Positions 1-38,248 are shown, counted from the stretch's first letter. The stretch: DNA of 43,105 bases from a virus (IMGVR_UViG_3300037119_001971:1-43105); one strand, 5' to 3'. Numbers and translations: made by a program. Notes: generated from the sequence alone by a model not told the origin.

Positions 1-22
1 ATGCCTGCCATTGCATCTCTCC

Positions 23-1810
23 TTACGCTGCGAGCAGTTCTTGGAGCTGCTCGGTTGTCTCTTGGAACTTGACGGGGGTCATTCGCTTCTGCGCCTTCTT
101 CAACATCGACGGGAGGTCCTGGAGGACGATCTCGTCGGGGTTCTGGTTGAGCGCCTTGCACAGCCGGCCGATGGCTGCTGCTTGTCCGGGTGTCACCACG
201 ACGGACTCTTCTGCGGTGTCGTGCTCGGGGATCCAGTCCCAGTGGCGACGGGGGTTGTTGGCCAACACCCATTGCACCATGAGGAGCTTGTCTGCGGGGC
301 TCGTGTAATAGACCCGCATGTAGAAGCCAAAGCCGGTCTCCTGGTTGGCCATGGCGAACACGCCCTTGTTGCGGGTGATGTCGGGGATCATGTGGGGGCC
401 GAAGTTCTTCGATGCCACCGAGCCCATGGCGACACCGGATGCGCTCTGGTCCTTGAGCCGGCCCGCCATGGCGAGGTCCACGTTGATGGAGATGTTGCGG
501 GGCAGGTCCTTGGCCGTGGCGTACTGGGTGGCGTTGACGGCGTAGATGCCCAGTGCCCGGCCCCGCTGGAATATCTTCGTCCAGTAGTCCATGGCCAGGT
601 CCGGCCCGCCGTTCTTGGCCGCCGGCAGCTCCTGGGTCTCGTCTCCCACCACCACGATGGCCGGCAGGGCCGGTGTGGCCTCGGGCAGCCATTCCAGGCC
701 CTGGGCCTTCATGAGCGCCGCCCGGCCCTCCATCTGGTCGTGGACGGCCCTCAGGCACTCCGTGGCGCCCTCGGGGGTGACCACGAGCCAGTCGATGCCG
801 GGCTCCCACTTGGCATGGTGCAGGCCCCACTTGCAGTCGATGACGATGACGATGACCCGGTCGGCCGGCAGCAGGCACAGGTTCATCAGGATCGTGTCCA
901 GCAAGACGCTCTTGCCCCAGCCGCTCTTGGCCATGATCGACCAACGGCTGATCATCGCCGTGATCTCCTGGCCCCACCGGTCACGGCCCAGGATGACGGG
1001 GAACGGCAACGCCACCCGAGCCCAACGCTCGTGGTAGAGCGGCAGGGGGATGTCCAGGCGCTTCCACAGCGGGTCGGTGCGCAGCAGGGTGATGGTGCCG
1101 TGGCCCGAGCGGATGTCGGTCTCGTCGTCAGGAGAGGCCTGCAGGCGCTCCAGGGTGGTCTGCACGTCGATGGCGGCGAAGTGCAGCTCCTGCTGCACCT
1201 TGGCGTGGCACAGGGCGGCGTAGAACGTCTTGGACTTCTCCAGGTGGCGGTTGAGGGTGGCCGCCAGGCGCTCGTCCTTGTCGCCGGGCTGGGCGGTGAG
1301 GTCGTCGATGCGGCCGAGGCTGGAGCCCTCCGACGCCGTCAGGTCGGCTTGAAGGCCGAAGACTTCGTCGTCGTGGTCACGGACCCAGTGCCAGTTGGTG
1401 GTGGAGGGGTAGTGCTCGAAGCCTCGGGGGTCGTCGTAGATGGTCTCGGTGAAGGTGGCCCAGGTGCGCTCCATGGCTGCCTGCAGCTCCTTGAAGAGGA
1501 AGGCGTCACGGAAGCCGCCAGAGGCCCCCAGGAAGCGCTGTATGCGCCTGACAGCCCGGAACAGCACCCACAGGGCCAGAGCGGCCAGGAGGGGCCGTAG
1601 CGTCTTGCTGGCAGCCCACAGAGCCAGGCCCACCATGAAGCCGGTCAGGCGCAGCAGGACCCACAGGAACTTGGAGTGGCCCGCCTTGCGGCTGGAGCCC
1701 CGGAACACGCCGGTGAGCTTGCGCCAGGTGCCGCTGAGGACCTTGACGATGAACCAGCCGGCGATGCCCAGGCCGATGAGCACGGCGATGAGGAAGCCCT
1801 CGATGCCCAT
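23..1810 (-). CDS. Membrane-anchored FtsK/SpoIIIE-type DNA translocase
   Basis: 595 aa. Three N-terminal hydrophobic segments (about residues 6-23, 49-67, 70-86) precede a soluble ATPase domain with Walker A AKSGWGKS (294-301) and Walker B VIVIVIDCK (319-327), the layout of FtsK/SpoIIIE/Tra motor ATPases that pump double-stranded DNA across a membrane. The ATG at 1810 shares one base with the stop of the upstream gene (TGATG), which fixes the start; an in-frame GTG 14 codons upstream lies inside that gene. It closes a run of membrane-protein genes. In actinomycete plasmids and ICEs, FtsK-like Tra proteins move double-stranded DNA between cells. In a phage the role is unknown: DNA transfer, plasmid-like segregation or a virion function are all possible. 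The ATPase assignment is strong; the role is inference. Confidence 0.85.
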   Translation of the reverse strand: MGIEGFLIAVLIGLGIAGWFIVKVLSGTWRKLTGVFRGSSRKAGHSKFLWVLLRLTGFMVGLALWAASKTLRPLLAALALWVLFRAVRRIQRFLGASGGFRDAFLFKELQAAMERTWATFTETIYDDPRGFEHYPSTTNWHWVRDHDDEVFGLQADLTASEGSSLGRIDDLTAQPGDKDERLAATLNRHLEKSKTFYAALCHAKVQQELHFAAIDVQTTLERLQASPDDETDIRSGHGTITLLRTDPLWKRLDIPLPLYHERWARVALPFPVILGRDRWGQEITAMISRWSIMAKSGWGKSVLLDTILMNLCLLPADRVIVIVIDCKWGLHHAKWEPGIDWLVVTPEGATECLRAVHDQMEGRAALMKAQGLEWLPEATPALPAIVVVGDETQELPAAKNGGPDLAMDYWTKIFQRGRALGIYAVNATQYATAKDLPRNISINVDLAMAGRLKDQSASGVAMGSVASKNFGPHMIPDITRNKGVFAMANQETGFGFYMRVYYTSPADKLLMVQWVLANNPRRHWDWIPEHDTAEESVVVTPGQAAAIGRLCKALNQNPDEIVLQDLPSMLKKAQKRMTPVKFQETTEQLQELLAA

Positions 1811-2403
1811 CACTGCACCTCGAAGATGCGGCCGCCGTTGTGGACCCGGCAACGGCTGCGAGCAAAGGCCTGACGGCCGCTGCGCTTGGCGATGTGGTTG
1901 GCCTCACGAGGACCGCCCTGCACGCACAGGGTCCCGTCGGGGTTAACCACACCCTGTGCATGGCCCTGTGGACGGGCGGCGTCGGGGCGCTCCCAGTCCT
2001 TGCCCCAGATCTTGCGCTGCGCACGGTCCGACCGAGGTGCTGCCCGCCCGCCGACGGTGGCGCTGACCCGTTGGTGCGCAGCCGTCCAGGTGGTGCGCAG
2101 GAAGCTAGCCAGGATCAGCAGCACGGTGATGAGCAGCACGATGAAGATGAGCTTGAGGTGGCTCATCATCCAGAAGCCGACGTTCATGAACCGTTGCAGC
2201 ACGTTGAACGGCAGGGTGAGGAAGTTGGCGAGGCCACTGGGCATGCCGTCGAGCACGGCCAGGGTGGTCTTGGCGCCGGCCTCCGACGCTGCCATGGTCG
2301 CCTGGGAGACGTGCACGGCAGCCTTCACAGCAGCGACAGGCGGCCCCAGGGTGGCGTTGTAGACGAAGTGCCCGATGTCCGCCGGGCTCGGGACGATGCT
2401 CAC
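1810..2403 (-). CDS. Single-pass membrane protein of the FtsK cassette
   Basis: 197 aa, starting at a GTG whose last two bases overlap the upstream stop (GTGA). The first 80 residues are Ala/Val-rich and amphipathic, residues about 84-102 (LIFIVLLITVLLILASFL) form one clear membrane helix, and the C-terminal half is basic and Arg-rich (SDRAQRKIWGKDWERPDAARPQG). I do not recognise the family. Its stop overlaps the translocase start, so the two are probably translationally coupled and may form a membrane complex. A longer reading upstream would overlap the GIY-YIG gene in another frame and is rejected. Confidence 0.75.
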   Translation of the reverse strand: MSIVPSPADIGHFVYNATLGPPVAAVKAAVHVSQATMAASEAGAKTTLAVLDGMPSGLANFLTLPFNVLQRFMNVGFWMMSHLKLIFIVLLITVLLILASFLRTTWTAAHQRVSATVGGRAAPRSDRAQRKIWGKDWERPDAARPQGHAQGVVNPDGTLCVQGGPREANHIAKRSGRQAFARSRCRVHNGGRIFEVQ

Positions 2404-2960
2404 GACAACTGCTCCACGGTGACGGGGGTGGCCCACTGGGCCTCGGGGAAGAACCAGCCCTCCAGGAAGTAGAAGGGCAGGAACACTGCGGCCACGGCCC
2501 ACTCCCAGGGCTTCACGCCTCGGCGGGTGTCCCGTGGGGTGTTGGAGATGTTGTGGATCTGGCGGTGGACGCTGCTGCCGGCGGCCTCCCACACGGCGAA
2601 GCACAAGAAGATCGACAGCGTGCGGCGGCGCTCGATGCGCATGGACTGGCGGTAGGTCCAGCAGTAGCGCACCACGGTGGAGGCGGGGATGTAGACCAGC
2701 GCCTTCCAGTTCTCCTTGCGCACACCGTCTGCAGCGTGCTGGTCCCAACGCCGGTCCTCGTTGACGGTCTGGCCGACGTAGAGCATCCAGCCGTGCTGGG
2801 TGCGCAGGTAGTAGATGCGCTCGACAGCGATGTGCGCCCAGGCCAGGACCCGCACGTCCTTGGAACAAGCGGCCTCGCAGGCGTATCGCTCCACGAGGTG
2901 TACGCCAGTTGCGAGAACCGAAACGACCATGAGCACAATGGCTACGTAGAAGATGGTCAT
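2400..2960 (-). CDS. Membrane protein with GIY-YIG nuclease-like core
   Basis: 186 aa. An N-terminal membrane helix (about residues 3-20) is followed by a soluble segment with GIY-YIG landmarks: I49-Y50-Y51 in the GIY position, L60-Y61-V62-G63-Q64-T65 for YIG, R70-R71-W72-D73-Q74-H75 with the usual catalytic Arg, and E110 as candidate metal-binding Glu. Two further hydrophobic stretches (about 115-131 and 154-173) follow. GIY-YIG enzymes cut one DNA strand through an Arg/Glu centre; a membrane-embedded one is unusual. It sits two genes from an FtsK-type translocase, so nicking DNA at the membrane is an attractive but unproven idea. The ATG at 2960 is followed at once by the hydrophobic segment. 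Confidence 0.75.
   Translation of the reverse strand: MTIFYVAIVLMVVSVLATGVHLVERYACEAACSKDVRVLAWAHIAVERIYYLRTQHGWMLYVGQTVNEDRRWDQHAADGVRKENWKALVYIPASTVVRYCWTYRQSMRIERRRTLSIFLCFAVWEAAGSSVHRQIHNISNTPRDTRRGVKPWEWAVAAVFLPFYFLEGWFFPEAQWATPVTVEQLS
2908..2924 (-). repeat. Family-2 17-bp palindrome, site 1
   Basis: Reads GTTGCGAGAACCGAAAC on the plus strand, one mismatch from GTTNCGG-N3-CCGNAAC. It lies about 35 bp inside the 5' end of the GIY-YIG gene. Confidence 0.55.
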
Positions 2961-2961
2961 G

Positions 2962-3681
2962 TCAGTCCTGGTTTGGGGTCCCAAAGTTGGTGTTGCGACG
3001 GTTGGCGACGTGGCGTGGCGCAGGCCGGCTGGAGCGGGGCACCTCGATGAAGGGCACGTCCTCGGGCTCGTCGTCGAGGTGCGGCGACCACGCCGGGGGC
3101 ACGAACGGTGCGGCAGGCTTGAGGTGGAGGTTGCGGACCGGGTAGTGGCTGCCGTCGAACTCGAAGCCGACGGAGTACTGGCCAGCCTTGACCTTGGTGG
3201 CCTTGGCGATGCCGATGCCGTGGCCCTCGCCGGTGAGGCGACGGGGCCGACGGTTGCCGTTCATGTACAGCTCGATGAGGTAGTCATCGGTGAGGTTGAA
3301 CGGCGGCTTCCGCTTGATGGCGTCGACCACCATGGACAGGAAGTAGTGGCCCGAGGTGGAGTCGTGGTAGCCCGCCGGGCCGATGTAGTCGAGCCGCACC
3401 GAGCGCAGCCACAGGCCCGTCAGGGCCTCCTTCTGGTCGAAGTGGAAGCTGACCTTGTCGACCAGCGGGCGGGGCACGAAGTTGCCGGTGGCGACGTTGA
3501 CACCACGGGTGCTGTTAGGCACGAGGCGGGACACCTGCACGGCGGGGATCGCCGTGGCCCAGGCCCAGTCGTTGGGGACACCACGGGCGCCGGCGTTGGC
3601 CAGGTCCACCATGGCCTCGGGCAACGCCCTGCTGTCGGTGGCCCAAACCTGGCCGGTGAGCTTCTCTGCGTGCAGGCTCAT
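2962..3681 (-). CDS. Unknown protein with DVP-x-IEVP C-terminal tail
   Basis: 239 aa; start ATG overlaps the upstream stop (ATGA). No signal peptide, membrane helix or known motif is visible. The body looks globular (AIPAVQVSRLVPNSTRGVNVATGNF, then SVRLDYIGPAGYHDSTSGHY around the middle). The last 45 residues are disordered-looking and contain EDVPFIEVPRSSRPAPR, similar to the tail of the next gene upstream and of the 152-aa protein at 28.0 kb. The final codons (NFGTPNQD) are written over a family-1 palindrome. It belongs to the membrane cassette by position and overlap; function unknown. Confidence 0.7.
   Translation of the reverse strand: MSLHAEKLTGQVWATDSRALPEAMVDLANAGARGVPNDWAWATAIPAVQVSRLVPNSTRGVNVATGNFVPRPLVDKVSFHFDQKEALTGLWLRSVRLDYIGPAGYHDSTSGHYFLSMVVDAIKRKPPFNLTDDYLIELYMNGNRRPRRLTGEGHGIGIAKATKVKAGQYSVGFEFDGSHYPVRNLHLKPAAPFVPPAWSPHLDDEPEDVPFIEVPRSSRPAPRHVANRRNTNFGTPNQD
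2972..2985. repeat. Family-1 palindrome TTTGGG-GT-CCCAAA, site 1
   Basis: Perfect 6-bp inverted arms around GT. It covers the last codons of the 239-aa gene, 8 bp before its stop and 12 bp upstream of the GIY-YIG start. Confidence 0.85.
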
Positions 3682-4205
3682 AGGTTCCTCTTGCCGGGCC
3701 GCAGCCGTAGCGGCCTGTTGGTGGAGCGGGGCACCTCGATCACCGGGGCCGGGACATCGGTGAAGATGTGGGCGGGGACCACGGCAGCGCCGCCCACGAC
3801 AACAGGGGGCTGGGCGGTGGTCAGGTCGACCTCCCAGCCACTGCCCCGCAACCGGTAGCCCAGGATGACCAGACCGTCGAGCACCGTGGTGTTGGTGCCT
3901 CGGCCGATGTGCGCCACCACGGCGACATCGGTACGGCCGCAGTAGTGGTTGAGCGTGTCCACAAAGCCGGGGATGTCCACGACGGCGAAGTAGCTGCCCG
4001 GTTGCAGCAACGGCCGGTGGGCGACGTAGAGGTTGACGGTGGTGCCCCGGTCGACGTAGTGGGTCGTGCCTCCCCAACTGCTGGCGTCGACCAGGTCCCG
4101 GTCGACGTTGCACGAGAAGACCGTCCAGTCGGTGCTGGCGTTGAACACCGTGGCCGTGCCGTTGGGGAACCACAACGTCACCGGGACCTCGGACACCTCG
4201 ATCAC
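3678..4205 (-). CDS. Unknown protein, beta-rich, with LRLRPGKRNL tail
   Basis: 175 aa from a GTG at 4205 that follows the upstream stop by one base and has a strong Shine-Dalgarno AGGGGAG four bases before it. An alternative ATG at 4328 would give 216 aa but overlaps the upstream gene by about 120 bp, so I prefer the GTG. The sequence looks beta-rich (VPVTLWFPNGTATVFNASTDWTVF) and ends FTDVPAPVIEVPRSTNRPLRLRPGKRNL. That tail resembles the ends of the 239-aa neighbour and the 152-aa protein at 28.0-28.5 kb. No known family recognised. Confidence 0.7.
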   Translation of the reverse strand: MIEVSEVPVTLWFPNGTATVFNASTDWTVFSCNVDRDLVDASSWGGTTHYVDRGTTVNLYVAHRPLLQPGSYFAVVDIPGFVDTLNHYCGRTDVAVVAHIGRGTNTTVLDGLVILGYRLRGSGWEVDLTTAQPPVVVGGAAVVPAHIFTDVPAPVIEVPRSTNRPLRLRPGKRNL

Positions 4206-4206
4206 G

Positions 4207-4920
4207 TCACTCCCCTGCGGGCTTACCGGGAGCTGCAGCACTTCCAAGCGGGGGAGCGGTGCCACCAGGTCCAGCAGGGACCGTCGTGGGCGCCGCTTGA
4301 ACAGGCGGGACATACGCACCGATGGCATCCCTTGAGCAGAGGAAGACGGGGACAGGAGCTTCGACGGTCCAACGGACCTGGAAGGTCAGGGTGATGTAGA
4401 CGTCCTTGTTCATCCACAGGTCGCACGGCGTGGCGAGCTGGACGCTGACCACCTTGCCGTTGAGGTCCCTGACCTCCTGGCGGGTGTCGACGATCTCCTT
4501 GACCTTCTTGGCCACCACCAGGCGGGCCTCACGGGTGGGGCCGATCAGCTCCCGGGCGGTGTCGGTGTACTCGGGGTACCAGACGTTGGGGGAGACCTCG
4601 GCCAGCTCATCGGGAGCACCCTCCAACGTCGTGGAGGTGGAGGACTTCGTGCCACCGTCACCGCTCATGCCGCCGAAAGCGACACCGCAGCCGACGACGA
4701 GCAGCAGGGGGATGCCGATCAGCAGCCCCACCAGCCGCCAGTTCACGCCCTTCCCTTGAGCCCTGGCGGGCTCCTGAGAAACGGACGGAGAGCCCTGCGG
4801 GCGCTCCGGGCCGGCACTGCGTGCCGGGACCTGCGGGAGCTGGACGTTGACGCCGACTACCGGCGGAGGAGGCGGCGGCGGGACCGCCGGCTCCTGCGCC
4901 TCAACGGCTACATCAGTCAT
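4207..4920 (-). CDS. Single-pass membrane protein with proline-rich cytoplasmic arm
   Basis: 237 aa. Residues 1-60 are Pro-rich with a run of seven prolines (14-20). One membrane helix spans about 62-84 (LVGLLIGIPLLLVVGCGVAFGG). An outer domain of about 130 residues has two cysteines (ATPCDLWMNKD, VFLCSRDAIG), followed by a Pro/Ala/Gly-rich end. The start ATG has a good Shine-Dalgarno (GAGG, six bases before it), but that site lies in one arm of a 10-bp inverted repeat. First gene of the cassette that ends with the FtsK-like motor. The topology resembles bitopic channel components, but no family is recognised. Confidence 0.8.
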   Translation of the reverse strand: MTDVAVEAQEPAVPPPPPPPVVGVNVQLPQVPARSAGPERPQGSPSVSQEPARAQGKGVNWRLVGLLIGIPLLLVVGCGVAFGGMSGDGGTKSSTSTTLEGAPDELAEVSPNVWYPEYTDTARELIGPTREARLVVAKKVKEIVDTRQEVRDLNGKVVSVQLATPCDLWMNKDVYITLTFQVRWTVEAPVPVFLCSRDAIGAYVPPVQAAPTTVPAGPGGTAPPLGSAAAPGKPAGE

Positions 4921-8573: not shown

Positions 8574-11500
8574 TCAGCTCAGAACTAGGACGGTCCGGTG
8601 ACTGGTCAGGACGGGGGCGGACCGGTGGCTGTGCAGGGTGCCGCCGGTGCTGTGTTGGGCGTAGAGCAGCGACGTCGAGTGGGTGGCGTGCAGGACGCCA
8701 CCGACCTGGCGCAAGGCGTAGAGCACCGGCCCCATGGAGGGGTTCAGGTAGTAGACGAGGACCAGCGGTGCGTGGACGGCGCCATTTGCCTGGACGGCTG
8801 TGGGGGTGGCTGTCCCGCCGTAGCGCACTGCTGGTGTCTGGACAGCGCCGTCTGCGTTGACCGTCTGGGGCGTGATGGCCCGGGAGACGGAGATGACCGG
8901 TGCCCGCACCAGTGCCAGCGCTGCGATGACCGCAGGGGCACCGACCGCACCTCCGGCAAAGCTGGGCAGGTTGACGGTGGCCTGGCCCACGATGACCGTG
9001 GGGGCCGCTACCGACGTTGCGGCGAAGGAGGCAGCCCCCACGGTTGCCACTGCCGTGACAGCAACGGGAGCGACGATAACAGCGCTGGTGATGTTTGGGG
9101 TCCCAATGTTGCCGAACGCCGCAACTGCAGACGGCGTGACCACCGCTGTGGCCCGCAAGACAGGGGCCTGCACCACAGCCGTTGCAGATACCGCAACAGG
9201 GAAGGCGACAGCAGGCTCGGAAACCAGCAGCGTGGGAGCACATACTGCGCCGGCTGCGTTGACGGGGGCGGGGACCAGGTTGATGGCCAGCAGCAGCGCC
9301 GGTGTCTGCACAGCGCCGGCTGCGGCCACCACGACGGGGGCGACAGTCGCTCCTGCTCCAGTCAGAACGGACGGTGCAAGGACGTTCCCGACACTGCTGA
9401 CCGTGGCAGGGATGACGACTGCCGCCGCACTGATCGTAGGCCCACGCACCGCACCGGAGCCGCTGACTGGAGCGGGTGTGGTGGCGACCTGGACTGTAGG
9501 CGCTTGGACGACGCCCACTGCGACGACAGCCGTCGGGGTCACCTTAGCGGTGGTGACCACCACAGGAGATTCCACGGTGCCTGTTGCGGCGACCGTGGTG
9601 GGCAGGGCGACCGCTCCCCCGGCAAAGGACGGCAGTCGCACCTGCCCGACGCCAACGATAACGCTGGGGGCGACAGTGGCAGAAGTGGTTAGGACGTAAC
9701 CGGGCTCGATGTAGGCGGTGACGTTGATCGTGGCCGGTAGCGCTGTGGCCGATGCGGAAACCGAAACGACGGGAGCCTGCACCAGACCGACAGCGGCGAC
9801 CATGGCCGGCAGGGCGACAGCTCCACCGGCGAACAGTGGCAGGTTGACCGTGCCCAGGGCGACGACAGCGCTGGGGGTGACAGCCGCAGTCGAGCTGACA
9901 GTTGGCGCCCCAACCGAGCCCAGGCCCGTTACTGGTCCGGGGAGGACAGTCAGGAGGACGGTCGGGGCGCCAACAGTGCCGACGGCGACCACGGCGGACG
10001 GGAGTGACCGGATGACCGTCGTCGGCACCCCGACATTACCAAGGCCCACCACGGCGCTGGGGAGTGCCTTGGCGGCGATGCCGGGGACCGGCACGGTACC
10101 AGTGGCCCCCACGACAGCAGGCGTGGCTCCCGCCGTCGTGGAGACCGCCGGCAACGGTACCGAGGCCACGGCGGGGACCACCGCAGGTACGCCGACTGCA
10201 CCCCCAGCGAAGCTGGGTAGCCCGACCGAGCCCTGAGCGGCGACGACCGCTGGCGTGATGGTCTGGCCACTCCCAGCGATCACCACAGGGGCCTGTACGG
10301 CCGCCAGAGCCCCGACAGGCACTGGGACCGGGGTCAGGAGGGTGGAGGGGCTTAGAACGGCTCCTGGGGCCGTTACAGGGGACGCCAGGACCAGGGCTGT
10401 GGCTGCCAGGGCGGGGGCGGGGACCGCACCAGGGGCGCTAACGGTGCTCGGGGTGACGTTGGCCGGGGCCAGGAAGCTCGGGGCTCGCACGAGGCCCACG
10501 GCGGCCACCGGGCTGGGGGCGGCCTGGGCGCCGGTGAGCAGTGCCGGCGCAGGGACCGCAGCGGGCGCTACAAGGGCGCTGGGGGCCACGACAGCCGTGG
10601 CAAACACCACAGGGGCCTGGACGGCCCCCGGGGCGCTCACAGTGGCAGGGAGGGCCTTCTCAGCGATCCCGGGGGCCGGCACCGCACCGGTACCCACGAC
10701 GGCGGCCGGTGACACATTGGCCGGGGCCAGGAACGTGGGGGCTCGGACAGCACCGGTGGCGGCCACCGCAGAGGGGGTGACGAACGCTGGCGCCAGGAAC
10801 GTGGGCGCCCCGACAGTGCCGACCCCGGTGACCACCGTGGGGATGACGTTGGCAGGGGCGAGGAACGTCGGGGCTCGTACGGCGCCCACTGCAGTGACGA
10901 CCGCTGGGGCGACCGTGAGAGGCGCCAGGAGGGCCGGTGCCCGTACCTGGCCCACGCCGGTGACAACAGACGGGGCAGCGCCTGAGGGGAAGCTGGGGAG
11001 CCCGACGGCGCCGATGCCGGTGACGGTGGTGGCGGGGATGACCCCGACGGACAACTTCCAGCGGCGGGCCGGTCCCGAGGCCCAGTTGCGGGTCGGGGTA
11101 GGCGAGGCCGCCCAGTGCCTCGTGCGGGTGTAGAGCTGGCCGACGTCGACCGCCGGTGCCCGTACTGCACCAGTTGCGGAAACCGCAACGGCGGTGACGA
11201 CAGCGGTTGCCTTGGGGGTGGGGGCCTGGACAGTACCGGTGGCGGCGACAGCGGCGGGTGCTGCAGTGGCTGCCCCGCCGCCGGCCGGTGGGACGTTGAC
11301 GTTGTCGAAGACGATCGAGCCCGTGCCGCCGGTGGCGGTAGCGGTGACGTCGAAGTAGGGGTCGATGGTGTTGTACCAAGTACCCGACACCGTGCGGGTT
11401 ACGCCAAAGGGGTTCGACCACGTCGTGCCGTCCGGTGACGTCTCGTACGTCATCGTCGTGCCGGAAACCGAAACACGCCACCAGCGGTGGTTAGTGGCGT

Positions 11501-12848
11501 TGTAGGGGATCGCCGTACCGGCGTAGTCGTTCGATGTCCCGCCCTGGCGGAAGTAGAACATCATGTTGCCGTTGGCGATGCCCATCTCGGTGTTGTTGGC
11601 CGAGTTCTGCCAGAGCATCAGGAGGCCCTTGTGGGTGCCTCCGCTCATCGTGTAGGACGGCACCTCTACGTAGACGGAGCTGGCCGCCATGTCGAGCCCG
11701 GCGGTGAGCCGGCCGAACCACCACTCGCCTCCTGCGGTGGTGGGCGTGTCCATCGTGAGCTTGCCGCTGCCCCACGTCCAACCGCTGCCGCCCACGTCGG
11801 TGTACCAGGCATCCTTGGTGCCAGCGGCGAAGTCCTCTCGCCAGGTGTCGATCTTGGCGCCGCTCGATGGGTAGTTCGGCACCGTCCCACCGGGGACGAC
11901 GGCGGTAGGTGCTTGGACTGTTGCGGTTGCCGCAACGGCCGTAGGGGCGACGATGGTGCCAGCGACAGCAGTGGGAGCAGGGACAGCACCGACACCGGCA
12001 ACGGCAGACGGCTGGACCTTGGCGGCGATACCAGGGGCCGGCACAGCGCCAGTGGCAGCGATGGCCGTGGGATGGGTGAGGGGAAGGTTGGGGATGGGGA
12101 CCAGTGCGGTGGCCGACACCGCAGACGGCAGCGGCGAGATCGCCTTGACCGGTGCCTGGACAGCGCCTGGTGCGTTGACGACGGCAGGCGTGCCGGGTCC
12201 GGCGCTGATGGCGACGGCGGCCAGCTCCAGGGCGACACAGCCCCACGCAGCGCCGGTGGCCCCTGTCATCGTCGGTGCCGTCACGAACGACGACGTGCTG
12301 CGGGACATGCCGAAGCTGTGGGCGGGGCTGTTGGCGGCGAACTCACCGAGCAGCGTCATGGAAGCCCCGGCGGCCACTGCCTGGTTCACGAGGTGACCGG
12401 CGGCCATGACGGTGCGGGAGTCAGTGTTGACCGCCGAGCCCAGAGTGGTGGCGGTGAAGGTCGTGCCGGTGCCGATGGCCACGGCCGACGTCTGGGGCAC
12501 CGGTGTGGTGAGGTGCTGCCCGGACACCTTGGTGACGCCCCAGTGCATCTGCTGCACCGAGCCGCTCTGCGTGATGGTCAGCGTGCCGCTGAAGCCACCA
12601 GCGCCGGCCTTGGCCGAGTGCAGCGAGATGGTGTCGCTGACGGTGTCGTAGGAGCCCTCGACGTGCTTGGTGAACGTGAGCCCCGAGCCGGTGACGAGAG
12701 AAGTACGGCCCGACGAGCCGTTGACGCAGGTGACCCCGACCAGGATCAGCTCGTCCGCTGCCACCGTGACCGTGGCCGTCGTGATCGGCGTGGTGAGTGC
12801 AGCAGGGTCGGCCGACGTGAACAGTTGGGTGAAGGTCGCTGCGGCCAC
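8574..12848 (-). CDS. Giant Ala/Val-rich repeat protein, probable minor tail or fibre protein
   Basis: 1424 aa from a GTG eight bases after the spike gene's stop. Residues 1 to about 215 form a non-repetitive beta-rich head (TATVTVAADELILVGVTC). Then come roughly 40 copies of a unit of about 20 residues with consensus P-x-x-V-x-A-x-G-x-V-x-A-P. One globular domain of about 190 residues interrupts the array (IDTWREDFAAGTKDAWYTDVGG to GSIVFDNVNVPP), rich in Trp/Tyr and resembling a concanavalin/LamG-like jelly roll. The C-terminus is His/Ser-rich (LHATHSTSLLYAQHSTGGTLHSHRS). Similar A/V/P repeats occur in actinophage minor tail proteins. I infer an extended fibre with one carbohydrate-binding domain. 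It contains five family-2 palindromes and one family-1 site. Confidence 0.85.
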   Translation of the reverse strand: MAAATFTQLFTSADPAALTTPITTATVTVAADELILVGVTCVNGSSGRTSLVTGSGLTFTKHVEGSYDTVSDTISLHSAKAGAGGFSGTLTITQSGSVQQMHWGVTKVSGQHLTTPVPQTSAVAIGTGTTFTATTLGSAVNTDSRTVMAAGHLVNQAVAAGASMTLLGEFAANSPAHSFGMSRSTSSFVTAPTMTGATGAAWGCVALELAAVAISAGPGTPAVVNAPGAVQAPVKAISPLPSAVSATALVPIPNLPLTHPTAIAATGAVPAPGIAAKVQPSAVAGVGAVPAPTAVAGTIVAPTAVAATATVQAPTAVVPGGTVPNYPSSGAKIDTWREDFAAGTKDAWYTDVGGSGWTWGSGKLTMDTPTTAGGEWWFGRLTAGLDMAASSVYVEVPSYTMSGGTHKGLLMLWQNSANNTEMGIANGNMMFYFRQGGTSNDYAGTAIPYNATNHRWWRVSVSGTTMTYETSPDGTTWSNPFGVTRTVSGTWYNTIDPYFDVTATATGGTGSIVFDNVNVPPAGGGAATAAPAAVAATGTVQAPTPKATAVVTAVAVSATGAVRAPAVDVGQLYTRTRHWAASPTPTRNWASGPARRWKLSVGVIPATTVTGIGAVGLPSFPSGAAPSVVTGVGQVRAPALLAPLTVAPAVVTAVGAVRAPTFLAPANVIPTVVTGVGTVGAPTFLAPAFVTPSAVAATGAVRAPTFLAPANVSPAAVVGTGAVPAPGIAEKALPATVSAPGAVQAPVVFATAVVAPSALVAPAAVPAPALLTGAQAAPSPVAAVGLVRAPSFLAPANVTPSTVSAPGAVPAPALAATALVLASPVTAPGAVLSPSTLLTPVPVPVGALAAVQAPVVIAGSGQTITPAVVAAQGSVGLPSFAGGAVGVPAVVPAVASVPLPAVSTTAGATPAVVGATGTVPVPGIAAKALPSAVVGLGNVGVPTTVIRSLPSAVVAVGTVGAPTVLLTVLPGPVTGLGSVGAPTVSSTAAVTPSAVVALGTVNLPLFAGGAVALPAMVAAVGLVQAPVVSVSASATALPATINVTAYIEPGYVLTTSATVAPSVIVGVGQVRLPSFAGGAVALPTTVAATGTVESPVVVTTAKVTPTAVVAVGVVQAPTVQVATTPAPVSGSGAVRGPTISAAAVVIPATVSSVGNVLAPSVLTGAGATVAPVVVAAAGAVQTPALLLAINLVPAPVNAAGAVCAPTLLVSEPAVAFPVAVSATAVVQAPVLRATAVVTPSAVAAFGNIGTPNITSAVIVAPVAVTAVATVGAASFAATSVAAPTVIVGQATVNLPSFAGGAVGAPAVIAALALVRAPVISVSRAITPQTVNADGAVQTPAVRYGGTATPTAVQANGAVHAPLVLVYYLNPSMGPVLYALRQVGGVLHATHSTSLLYAQHSTGGTLHSHRSAPVLTSHRTVLVLS
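9094..9107. repeat. Family-1 palindrome, site 3 (one mismatch)
   Basis: TTTGGG-GT-CCCAAT, last base mismatched. It lies inside the repeat-protein gene, where it encodes part of NIGTPNIT, and abuts an imperfect family-2-like sequence at 9108-9125. Confidence 0.65.
9181..9197 (-). repeat. Family-2 17-bp palindrome, site 3
   Basis: GTTGCAGATACCGCAAC on the plus strand, one mismatch from consensus, inside the repeat-protein gene (VAVSATA codons). Confidence 0.5.
9751..9767 (-). repeat. Family-2 17-bp palindrome, site 4
   Basis: GATGCGGAAACCGAAAC on the plus strand, one mismatch from consensus, inside the repeat-protein gene. Confidence 0.5.
11173..11189 (-). repeat. Family-2 17-bp palindrome, site 5 (perfect)
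   Basis: GTTGCGG-AAA-CCGCAAC, perfect seven-base arms, inside the repeat-protein gene. Confidence 0.6.
11458..11474 (-). repeat. Family-2 17-bp palindrome, site 6
   Basis: GTGCCGGAAACCGAAAC on the plus strand, one mismatch from consensus. It is in the globular inserted domain, not the Ala/Val repeats, so protein repetition does not explain it. Confidence 0.55.
11920..11936 (-). repeat. Family-2 17-bp palindrome, site 7 (perfect)
   Basis: GTTGCGG-TTG-CCGCAAC, perfect seven-base arms, inside the repeat-protein gene. Confidence 0.6.
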
Positions 12849-27866: not shown

Positions 27867-28023
27867 GGCGTGCCTTCTGCGTGCGGCAGGACACACAGGT
27901 CACGGGGCGGGGCTTGTCCAGGTAGCGCCAGACGTTGCGGTTGAGCCCGCACAGCGTCTTGGTGAAGCCCCGCTGCGCCCAGTGGGTGATGCCTGCTGCC
28001 GATGCCACCACGAGGTAGGTCAC
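27853..28023 (-). CDS. Tiny protein with CVSCR zinc motif, 56 aa
   Basis: GTG 28023 overlaps the upstream stop (GTGA). A hydrophobic start (TYLVVASAAGITHWA) leads to TLCGLNRNVWRYLDKPRPVTCVSCRTQKARRETS. Cys25 plus C43-x2-C46 could bind a metal. Small CxxCR proteins like this are common and uncharacterised in actinophages (recollection). Confidence 0.65.
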   Translation of the reverse strand: MTYLVVASAAGITHWAQRGFTKTLCGLNRNVWRYLDKPRPVTCVSCRTQKARRETS

Positions 28024-28478
28024 GGCGCCAGGTTACGCTTGCCCGCCCGGAGCCTCAGCGTGGATGGCTTGGGCGGGGGCACGTCGATGGTGGGCACGTC
28101 GGGTACCACCTCGGTGAGCACGAAGTGGCCGGAGGGGTCCCATGTCACCTTGAGGGTCCCGGACTTGATGATGCCGACAAGGGAGGTCAGCTCGTCCTTG
28201 ACCTGCTTCACGCCCGCCTTCCATTCCGCCTGCCGCTCTTCGGTGTAGAAGTAGGCGCCCTGCACCGTGGTGTTATGGCTCGTGAGACCACCGACCTCCT
28301 GCCAGGAACCTGCGTCCATGCGCACAGGGCCGGCCATCCCGTAGAGCTTGCCCTTGGCCTCAAGGCTGGCGTCCTGGGCACGCCGTGCTTCAGCAAGGAT
28401 GCGCAGGCGGTCCTCGGTGGAGCGCTTGCGTGCTTCTTCCCATTCCTTGGCTTCTCTACGTCGCTTGCCTCTGCCCAC
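28020..28478 (-). CDS. Unknown protein with coiled-coil start and LRLRAGKRNL tail
   Basis: 152 aa from GTG 28478. Residues 1-45 are strongly charged and helical (GRGKRRREAKEWEEARKRSTEDRLRILAEARRAQ). The core contains GAYFYTEERQAEWKAGVKQVKDELTSLVG. The end VVPDVPTIDVPPPKPSTLRLRAGKRNLAP echoes the tail of the 175-aa protein in the membrane cassette. It overlaps its upstream neighbour by 23 bp. Confidence 0.7.
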   Translation of the reverse strand: MGRGKRRREAKEWEEARKRSTEDRLRILAEARRAQDASLEAKGKLYGMAGPVRMDAGSWQEVGGLTSHNTTVQGAYFYTEERQAEWKAGVKQVKDELTSLVGIIKSGTLKVTWDPSGHFVLTEVVPDVPTIDVPPPKPSTLRLRAGKRNLAP

Positions 28479-36796: not shown

Positions 36797-38248
36797 GTGT
36801 CCTCCATCATCGTCAAGCGCCCACCACAGACGAAGACCGAACTCTGGTGGTGGCTGAAGGCAGTCACGGGCCAGACGGTGCCACCAGTGAAGTGCTGTGC
36901 CAATCACGTCGCACCGTTGGACGTGGCCTGGGCCATCTACACCCGTCAGCACCCTGTCATCGTGATCAAGGCGAGCCGAGGCCTAGCCGGCAAGAGCCAG
37001 CTCCTGGCCACCATCGCCGTGGGGCTGTCTATCATCCAGGGTGTTGAGGTTCTGGTGCTTGGCGGTTCCATGCACCAGAGCCTCAACGTGCAGAAGATCA
37101 GCTCTGATCTTTGGGACTTCCCGAACATGCCCCGGGACCTGTTGCTGCGTGAGCCCACCAAGACCGAGTACGTGATGCGTCACGGTGGCCGTGTGCGTGC
37201 GGTACCGGCGTCACAGAAGAGCGTGCGTGGGCCTCACCCCAACATCCTGCTGATGGACGAAATCGACGAGATGGACCTGGAGGTGCTCGATTCCGCCATG
37301 GGCATGCCGATGTCCAAGAAGGGCCACCGTGCCGTCACGGTGATGTCGTCCACCCACCAGTACCCGTTCGGCTCCATGACGGAGATCCTGAACCGGGCCA
37401 ACGACAACGTGGACTGGTGGTCGGTGATGTGGTGCTGGCGTGAGTCCAGCTCCTCGCCCCATGGTTGGTTGGACCCCATGGCTGTCGAGCAGAAGCGGAT
37501 GGAGCTGTCCCGCATCATGTTCGACGTTGAGGTCGAGCTGCAGGACCCCGTGGTGGACGGCACGTTGTTCCCGCCCGAGCACGTCTATGCGATGTGGGAC
37601 GAGGCCCGTGGCACCTATGAGGGCAAGCCGTCGGAGTACCTGGAATTCGAGGAGCCACAGATCGGGGTCAAGTACGCCACCGGTGTCGACTGGGCGAAGT
37701 CCAAGGACTGGACGGTGATCACCACGAGGCGCATGGACACCTGGGAACTGGTGGCGTGGGAGCGCATGCAGCGGCTGCCGTGGCCGTTCATGATCCGCAA
37801 GGCGCTCGACAGGGTGAAGCGCTACCCAGGCTCCATGGCCCATGACGCCACCGGCATCGGTGACGTGATCGCTGACGTGTTCCCCGAAGAGGTGCGCCGG
37901 TTCCGCAACATCCACGACGTGGTGATGCGGGGCTCAGAGCGCAGTGAGCTGTTCACCGAGTACATGACAGCGCTGGAGTCCAACACCTTCCACGGTCCCC
38001 ATGTGCGCTTTGCCCGCAGTGAGCACCTGTATTGCACATGGAAGGACATCTTCACCGTCGCCGGCCACCCGCCCGACTCCATCGTGGCCGAGTGCATGGC
38101 GTGGTACTGCCGAGGCAAGTCCCAAGCCGGCAAGATGACCGATGCCGTAGTGCAGCCCCGCAACAGCTCGCCGTGGGCCGGTGGCCTGTCCACCGACCTG
38201 GCCGGCATGTCCGTGGGCTCCGACGGTTGGGGCAACTGGCAAGGCTAG
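36797..38248 (+). CDS. terL: Terminase large subunit
   Basis: 483 aa from GTG 36797. Walker A is ASRGLAGKS (59-67), Walker B NILLMDEIDEMD (149-160), with MSSTHQYP as coupling motif. The nuclease domain carries GVDWAKSKDW (D298) and AHDATGIGD (D350, D356), the RuvC-like acidic triad. This ATP-driven motor cuts concatemers and packs DNA through the portal. It is the only plus-strand gene, diverging from the portal and converging on the gene at 38.3 kb. No Shine-Dalgarno precedes the GTG, so the start is uncertain. A family-1 palindrome follows its stop with no gap. Confidence 0.92.
   Translation: MSSIIVKRPPQTKTELWWWLKAVTGQTVPPVKCCANHVAPLDVAWAIYTRQHPVIVIKASRGLAGKSQLLATIAVGLSIIQGVEVLVLGGSMHQSLNVQKISSDLWDFPNMPRDLLLREPTKTEYVMRHGGRVRAVPASQKSVRGPHPNILLMDEIDEMDLEVLDSAMGMPMSKKGHRAVTVMSSTHQYPFGSMTEILNRANDNVDWWSVMWCWRESSSSPHGWLDPMAVEQKRMELSRIMFDVEVELQDPVVDGTLFPPEHVYAMWDEARGTYEGKPSEYLEFEEPQIGVKYATGVDWAKSKDWTVITTRRMDTWELVAWERMQRLPWPFMIRKALDRVKRYPGSMAHDATGIGDVIADVFPEEVRRFRNIHDVVMRGSERSELFTEYMTALESNTFHGPHVRFARSEHLYCTWKDIFTVAGHPPDSIVAECMAWYCRGKSQAGKMTDAVVQPRNSSPWAGGLSTDLAGMSVGSDGWGNWQG

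Follow-up and report, generated by a model that had tools for sequence, protein, structure and literature searches.

The six genes at the left end of this phage sequence form one real, single, resident operon built on an FtsK-type motor. They lie in the same direction on the minus strand, from position 4920 to position 23 of the window (the whole 43,105-base IMG/VR record). All six open reading frames are intact, and the junctions from g1 to g6 measure 1, -4, 1, -4 and -1 bp, the tight packing that had been described earlier. FtsK proteins in phages are already known; four of the proteins here (g1, g2, g3, and g5) are unlike anything found, and the operon is a phage FtsK module in a new form, with five partners (g1–g5) not found elsewhere. 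It sits at the end of the structural region, by the tail genes. The operon can be considered a resident part of the genome because it has the phage's own codon usage (correlation 0.987 with the rest of the phage) and contains a copy of a phage-wide palindrome. Hydropathy places membrane helices in four of the six proteins (g1, g4, g5, and g6), as the earlier note proposed, and together with the domain matches bears out its picture of a motor and a nuclease-like domain that both sit at the membrane, encoded by a siphovirus-like genome.

The genome has a GC content of 65% and encodes recognizable portal, terminase, head-morphogenesis, major tail, tail chaperone, and tape-measure proteins; it is siphovirus-like. 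The nearest relatives of the portal protein are from a phage sequence from human faeces and from Arthrobacter phages, which makes an actinobacterial host likely; the sequence is that of a tailed phage whose host is probably among the high-GC Gram-positive bacteria. The record is classed as linear and is probably a fragment. No terminal repeats or circular closure were found in its 43,105 bases, and an exact search with the contig end among viral contigs gave no leftward extension. The right end carries a RecA/UvsX-like fragment (a weak match), and near it lies a protein whose match is a phage family labelled “CRISPR/Cas system associated”. The large terminase gene (36797–38248) is the sole plus-strand gene called, all others being on the minus strand. 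A 1424-aa Val/Ala/Pro-rich protein encoded at 8574–12848 has repeats visible in the protein, while tandem repeats were not found in the DNA, and for a gene this long the codon score is low. A 5,482-base contig of another record (L002), covering the portal-terminase region, is 100% identical in all proteins compared; from this identity it appears that the same phage was sampled twice.

The palindrome, 14 bp in length (TTTGGGNNCCCAAA, also TTTGGGGTCCCAAA), is present in seven exact and two one-mismatch copies, where 0.04 would be expected by chance. These are at positions 2972, 5594, 9094, 15693, 24463, 29288, 33023, 38249, and 42807, several of them shortly before a gene start or where a gene ends. 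The copy in the cassette (TTTGGGGTCCCAAA, 2972–2985) lies in the last part of g3, with the g4 start about 12 bp further on. Exact copies are absent from the distant portal relatives. The palindrome looks like a phage-wide regulatory site, of the stoperator or start-associated-sequence kind. A chimeric contig was also considered and thought unlikely, given that the palindromes span the whole record and the codon usage of the cassette fits the rest.

The last complete gene, g6 (23–1810), encodes a 595-aa FtsK/SpoIIIE-type ATPase with N-terminal membrane helices (residues 7–25, 48–66, and perhaps 69–87 by hydropathy). It matches PF01580 (FtsK_SpoIIIE; E=6.9e-8) and, over residues 204–470, PHROG_1358 (E=1.3e-26). 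The Walker A motif (AKSGWGKS, with K300) and Walker B residues (D390-E391) are intact, and G299, K300, D390, and E391 are invariant in the alignment, so that a membrane-anchored FtsK/SpoIIIE ATPase, as first proposed from the sequence, is well borne out. No match to the FtsK gamma domain was found with Pfam. The nearest solved structure is 6o1w, a TcpA-type DNA translocase coupling protein (E=9.5e-4). In comparisons among profiles, g6 scored highest with the Replic_Relax type of phages and plasmids (84 bits) and lowest with the actinomycete conjugation Tra type (41 bits). Between these came a three-sequence profile, from two actinobacterial loci and a viral contig (75 bits), and one of FtsK proteins that are mostly longer and presumed chromosomal (62 bits). 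In FtsK-domain trees it is on a very long branch, and its grouping with either side is not settled. On the basis of the profile scores and this long branch, g6 is placed, as a divergent form, with the FtsK proteins of phages, and the evidence does not lean towards the conjugative Tra type. The specific link to actinomycete Tra proteins drawn in the earlier note is thus left without support, the FtsK domain being present but scoring 84 bits with the Replic_Relax type and the tree being unsettled. An FtsK gene on a siphovirus is also less surprising than that note implied, since siphoviruses and podoviruses commonly carry them (PMC4197329, PMC3853050, PMC13299392).

Such proteins were found, for example, in 24 of 93 Bacillus phages (PMC4197329) and in Thermobifida phage P1312 (PMC4569894), and the FtsK of phage AP-20-A belongs to PHROG_1358 (PMC13299392), a family common in Bacillus phages and also present in actinobacterial prophages. 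Relatives of g6 were drawn from four sources: Firmicutes phages and plasmids, viral contigs found by motif, high-GC viral contigs, and actinobacterial loci. In the Firmicutes phages and plasmids a Replic_Relax gene usually comes next after FtsK, one Paenibacillus plasmid being the exception, and in several of the phages the FtsK gene is directly behind lysis genes. A motif present in g6 brought up 39 viral contigs: in 37 of them Replic_Relax is the gene immediately behind FtsK, and two end too soon to show the following gene; the pair is close to fixed in this set. Several of the high-GC-type viral contigs with FtsK carry DUF2637, and the FtsK loci of actinobacterial genomes include an element with RepSA. 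One actinobacterial locus (L256, 191–6390) has in a row a transglycosylase-like protein, a single-pass membrane protein, an HTH protein, and an FtsK motor, and resembles a small transfer module. Among 396 genomes of the same phylum (Actinobacteria), only distant FtsK relatives of g6 were seen. None of the FtsK relatives found is accompanied by g1–g5, and a tethered GIY-YIG protein was not met in any known FtsK module.

Beyond g6, about 12 bp of a truncated seventh gene (ATGGCAGGCAT...; 1–12, minus strand) remain at the contig end. This gene is predicted to be of Replic_Relax type, because FtsK genes with the same motif precede Replic_Relax in the 37 contigs above. No Replic_Relax gene was found elsewhere in the 43-kb window.

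Among the partners, g4 (2400–2960) is a 186-aa membrane protein with a likely GIY-YIG domain at about residues 48–126 and thus a putative nuclease. The PF01541 match is just above the curated cut-off (22.7 against 22.6 bits; E=1.2e-4), with Y50, Y61, R71, H75, and E110 as key residues. Aligned with 19 phage GIY-YIG proteins, g4 has Y50, Y61, G63, R71, and H75 at invariant positions, which is a sign of consistency rather than independent proof, as these proteins were chosen by a motif including some of the same residues; E110, the presumed catalytic Glu, falls one column away from the family Glu in this MAFFT alignment. The structure model has strands at 48–54 and 60–65, a helix at 68–77, a strand at 85–92, and helices at 93–107 and 111–126, which is the beta-beta-alpha-beta-alpha-alpha order of the GIY-YIG core. 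Its pLDDT is 80–89 at residues 51–80 and 55.8 overall. A fold search with it gave no significant match, although 1ywl, Slx1, I-TevI, and UvrC, all GIY-YIG structures, were among the top ten. Of the idea that the residues form the fold, then, the order of elements speaks for it and the significance of the fold search does not. The “three-segment” membrane protein with a GIY-YIG core described earlier keeps its core, but the count of three segments is doubtful: residues 2–20 form a strong helix (mean hydropathy 2.43) and 154–172 are likely a second, while the middle segment, 114–132, is of weak hydropathy and overlaps a predicted helix of the core. The viral contigs contain many ordinary free-standing GIY-YIG proteins, and none of the matches listed there has the layout or neighbours of g4.

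The two soluble proteins are g2 (3678–4205; 175 aa, GTG start) and g3 (2962–3681; 239 aa). Their similar tails, at the C-terminus of g2 (VIEVPRSTNRPLRLRPGKRNL) and near that of g3 (FIEVPRSSRPAPRHVANRRN), had already been noticed and are real: both contain IEVPRS followed by a basic end, with a score reached by just eight of 2000 shuffles. A third carrier, with C-terminal end TIDVPPPKPSTLRLRAGKRNLAP, is encoded outside the cassette (28020–28478, minus strand) and was identified by motif scan and by a blastp comparison of the window's own proteins (59% over 22 aa, E=0.012). The motif is absent from 2.69 Mb of other loci; it was written from its three carriers, so this absence reflects rarity and says nothing on function. 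The shared tail may be a docking or loading peptide.

The remaining two proteins each span the membrane once, as the earlier reading had it. The first, g1 (4207–4920), is a 237-aa bitopic protein with a Pro-rich N-terminal segment, a single strong helix at residues 63–81, and a C-terminal domain of no recognized family; a single-sequence structure model was uninformative, with the membrane helix alone visible. The second, g5 (1810–2403; 197 aa, GTG start), has one strong helix at residues 83–101 and a mostly basic C-terminal half. No family match was found for g1, g2, g3, or g5 in Pfam, PHROGs, or NCBIfam, and a viral contig scan with g3 alone as query returned no relative. More generally, no relatives of g1–g5 were found in phages, plasmids, viral contigs, or 13 actinobacterial genomes, where the viral scans depend on exact matches to short peptide patterns that distant relatives could escape. 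The earlier view that the gene set has no described counterpart is in keeping with this, no other instance having turned up in the collections searched. Nor was unlinking of the genes seen, as there were no relatives of g1–g5 in the collections searched.

From the features that can be read directly (operon structure, the family of g6, the GIY-YIG motif of g4, the hydropathy helices, and the shared tails) we infer a topology, a complex, a substrate, and a role for the operon. The leading explanation, put forward tentatively and with rather less than even confidence, is that it encodes a membrane-anchored DNA-handling complex on an FtsK-type dsDNA motor, an elaborated PHROG_1358 module most likely serving the phage's own genome. 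In such a complex g6 would be anchored in the membrane, its ATPase reaching into the cytoplasm and moving double-stranded DNA there. The GIY-YIG domain of g4 would be on the cytoplasmic face, where it could nick or cut DNA engaged by the motor; g1 and g5, also in the membrane, would position the motor or control it, and the shared tail would bring in g2 and g3. The substrate would most likely be the phage genome (its anchoring, movement, or segregation) rather than the host chromosome; a host-chromosome translocase is argued against by the membrane helices of g6 and the lack of a matched gamma domain. Several things are consistent with this explanation. By its sequence g6 is of the phage FtsK kind and keeps its ATPase motifs, and the GIY-YIG residues and modelled core topology are kept in g4. 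By analogy, FtsK genes lie beside Replic_Relax in phages and phage-like plasmids, and their position behind lysis genes in several phages is comparable to the post-tail place here. For Novomoskovsk and Bolokhovo, which have FtsK with Replic_Relax, the authors tie the pair to plasmid-type replication, segregation, and upkeep (PMC9658697). Against it, the presumed partner gene is off the contig, g6 is very divergent, g1–g5 are missing beside the FtsK relatives found, and in the 43 kb neither an integrase nor Replic_Relax was found and no partition gene was recognized. Precedent offers no prediction of what g4 does, since a tethered GIY-YIG partner was absent from the known FtsK modules seen.

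Two other explanations, superinfection exclusion and DNA transfer, come close behind, though each is on its own unlikely. In the first, g4 would cut incoming phage DNA, g6 would reel it in or hold it, and g1 and g5 would place the complex. A parallel is SNIPE, which is anchored in the membrane and, with a GIY-YIG domain in the cytoplasm, cuts phage DNA during injection (PMC13190303); g4 likewise has an N-terminal helix and a GIY-YIG core, and PHROGs puts phage FtsK-like proteins in its moron/host takeover category. SNIPE, however, requires DUF4041 (PMC13190303), which the 186-aa g4 lacks, its Pfam matches up to E=10 being GIY-YIG and one chance-level family. The description of SNIPE that was consulted mentions no FtsK partner (PMC13190303), a search of defence families gave no convincing match (weak ones were CorA-like, E=0.0017, and PDC-S14, E=0.014), and the SspH match of g6 is to the FtsK domain only.

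Marginally less probable again is a conjugation- or mobilization-like module, in which g6 would be a TcpA- or actinomycete Tra-like coupling protein or pump and the relaxase would be off the contig. The solved structure nearest to g6 is of this kind, and PF13814 (Replic_Relax) is listed as the MobC relaxase family, with TcpA-type genes upstream of the relaxase in mobilizable elements (PMC5357655); in Actinobacteria a single FtsK-like protein is the conjugative translocase (PMC3218068). Yet the actinomycete Tra-type profile score is twofold lower, and the record is that of a virus with terminase, portal, and tail genes. Integrase families PF00589 and PF07508 are absent from the 43 kb of this incomplete genome, and no RepSA, RepAM, or Prim-Pol replication protein is among the Pfam-scanned proteins, which take in part of the small genes of a contig fragment. 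The cassette has no Pfam match to a T4SS ATPase or peptidoglycan hydrolase family. Conjugation is possible, without special support.

That the genes are a loose run of unrelated accessories, in which g6 is just another phage FtsK and the tethered nuclease g4 has a use of its own, is improbable: g1–g5 have no relatives found and the FtsK relatives lack them, but starts and stops overlap or abut across all six genes, four membrane proteins share one operon, and g2 and g3 share a tail. Least probable is an aid to DNA entry, with a motor made early or carried in the virion pulling the phage genome into the cell; the operon adjoins tail genes and the authors on podophage Pony guessed at such a role in injection for its FtsK (PMC3853050), but a membrane-integral complex expressed in the host would come too late for first entry, and the presence of any of the g1–g6 proteins in the virion would be conjectural.

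In broader terms the operon may represent a new way of handling DNA at the cell membrane. It is doubtful, though conceivable, that it encodes a phage machine whose FtsK-type pump and tethered GIY-YIG nuclease cooperate on DNA that crosses or touches the membrane, for transfer, entry, or exclusion, and are assembled via a C-terminal docking tail peculiar to the phage; the search turned up no described system of this composition. Many phages of Gram-positive bacteria carry FtsK-type motors, and the operon offers a concrete set of genes for asking what their job is: upkeep of the phage genome, transfer from cell to cell, or exclusion of rivals at the membrane.

Among known systems, the PHROG_1358 proteins of Bacillus phages Andromeda, PM1, Pascal, and Pony and Sinorhizobium phage AP-20-A are, like g6, FtsK-type ATPases on tailed phages, often with one N-terminal membrane helix and often behind lysis or structural genes, a comparable arrangement to that here. 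The Bacillus phage FtsK proteins share with g6 the motif TQY-x-T-x4-LP, but those of Bacillus phages and plasmids are about 390–450 aa long, against 595 aa and more membrane helices in g6, and are followed by Replic_Relax without g1–g5; here g1–g5 are present and the next gene is truncated. Actinomycete AICE Tra proteins and prophage FtsK proteins near DUF2637 are also membrane-anchored FtsK-type ATPases, with an RGRALG motif shared with g6, small membrane proteins nearby, and high-GC hosts, as is likely here. In this window, in contrast, no DUF2637 or integrase was found and no RepSA recognized, and the actinomycete Tra profile gives g6 half the score of the phage/plasmid type. TcpA of plasmid pCW3 is likewise of FtsK type and structurally the nearest to g6, whereas no type IV secretion genes were recognized in the window. 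SNIPE resembles g4 in its N-terminal membrane helix and a GIY-YIG domain toward the cytoplasm, the facing we infer for g4; g4 differs in being much shorter and without DUF4041, and in having a probable extra C-terminal helix and an FtsK-type motor in the same operon.
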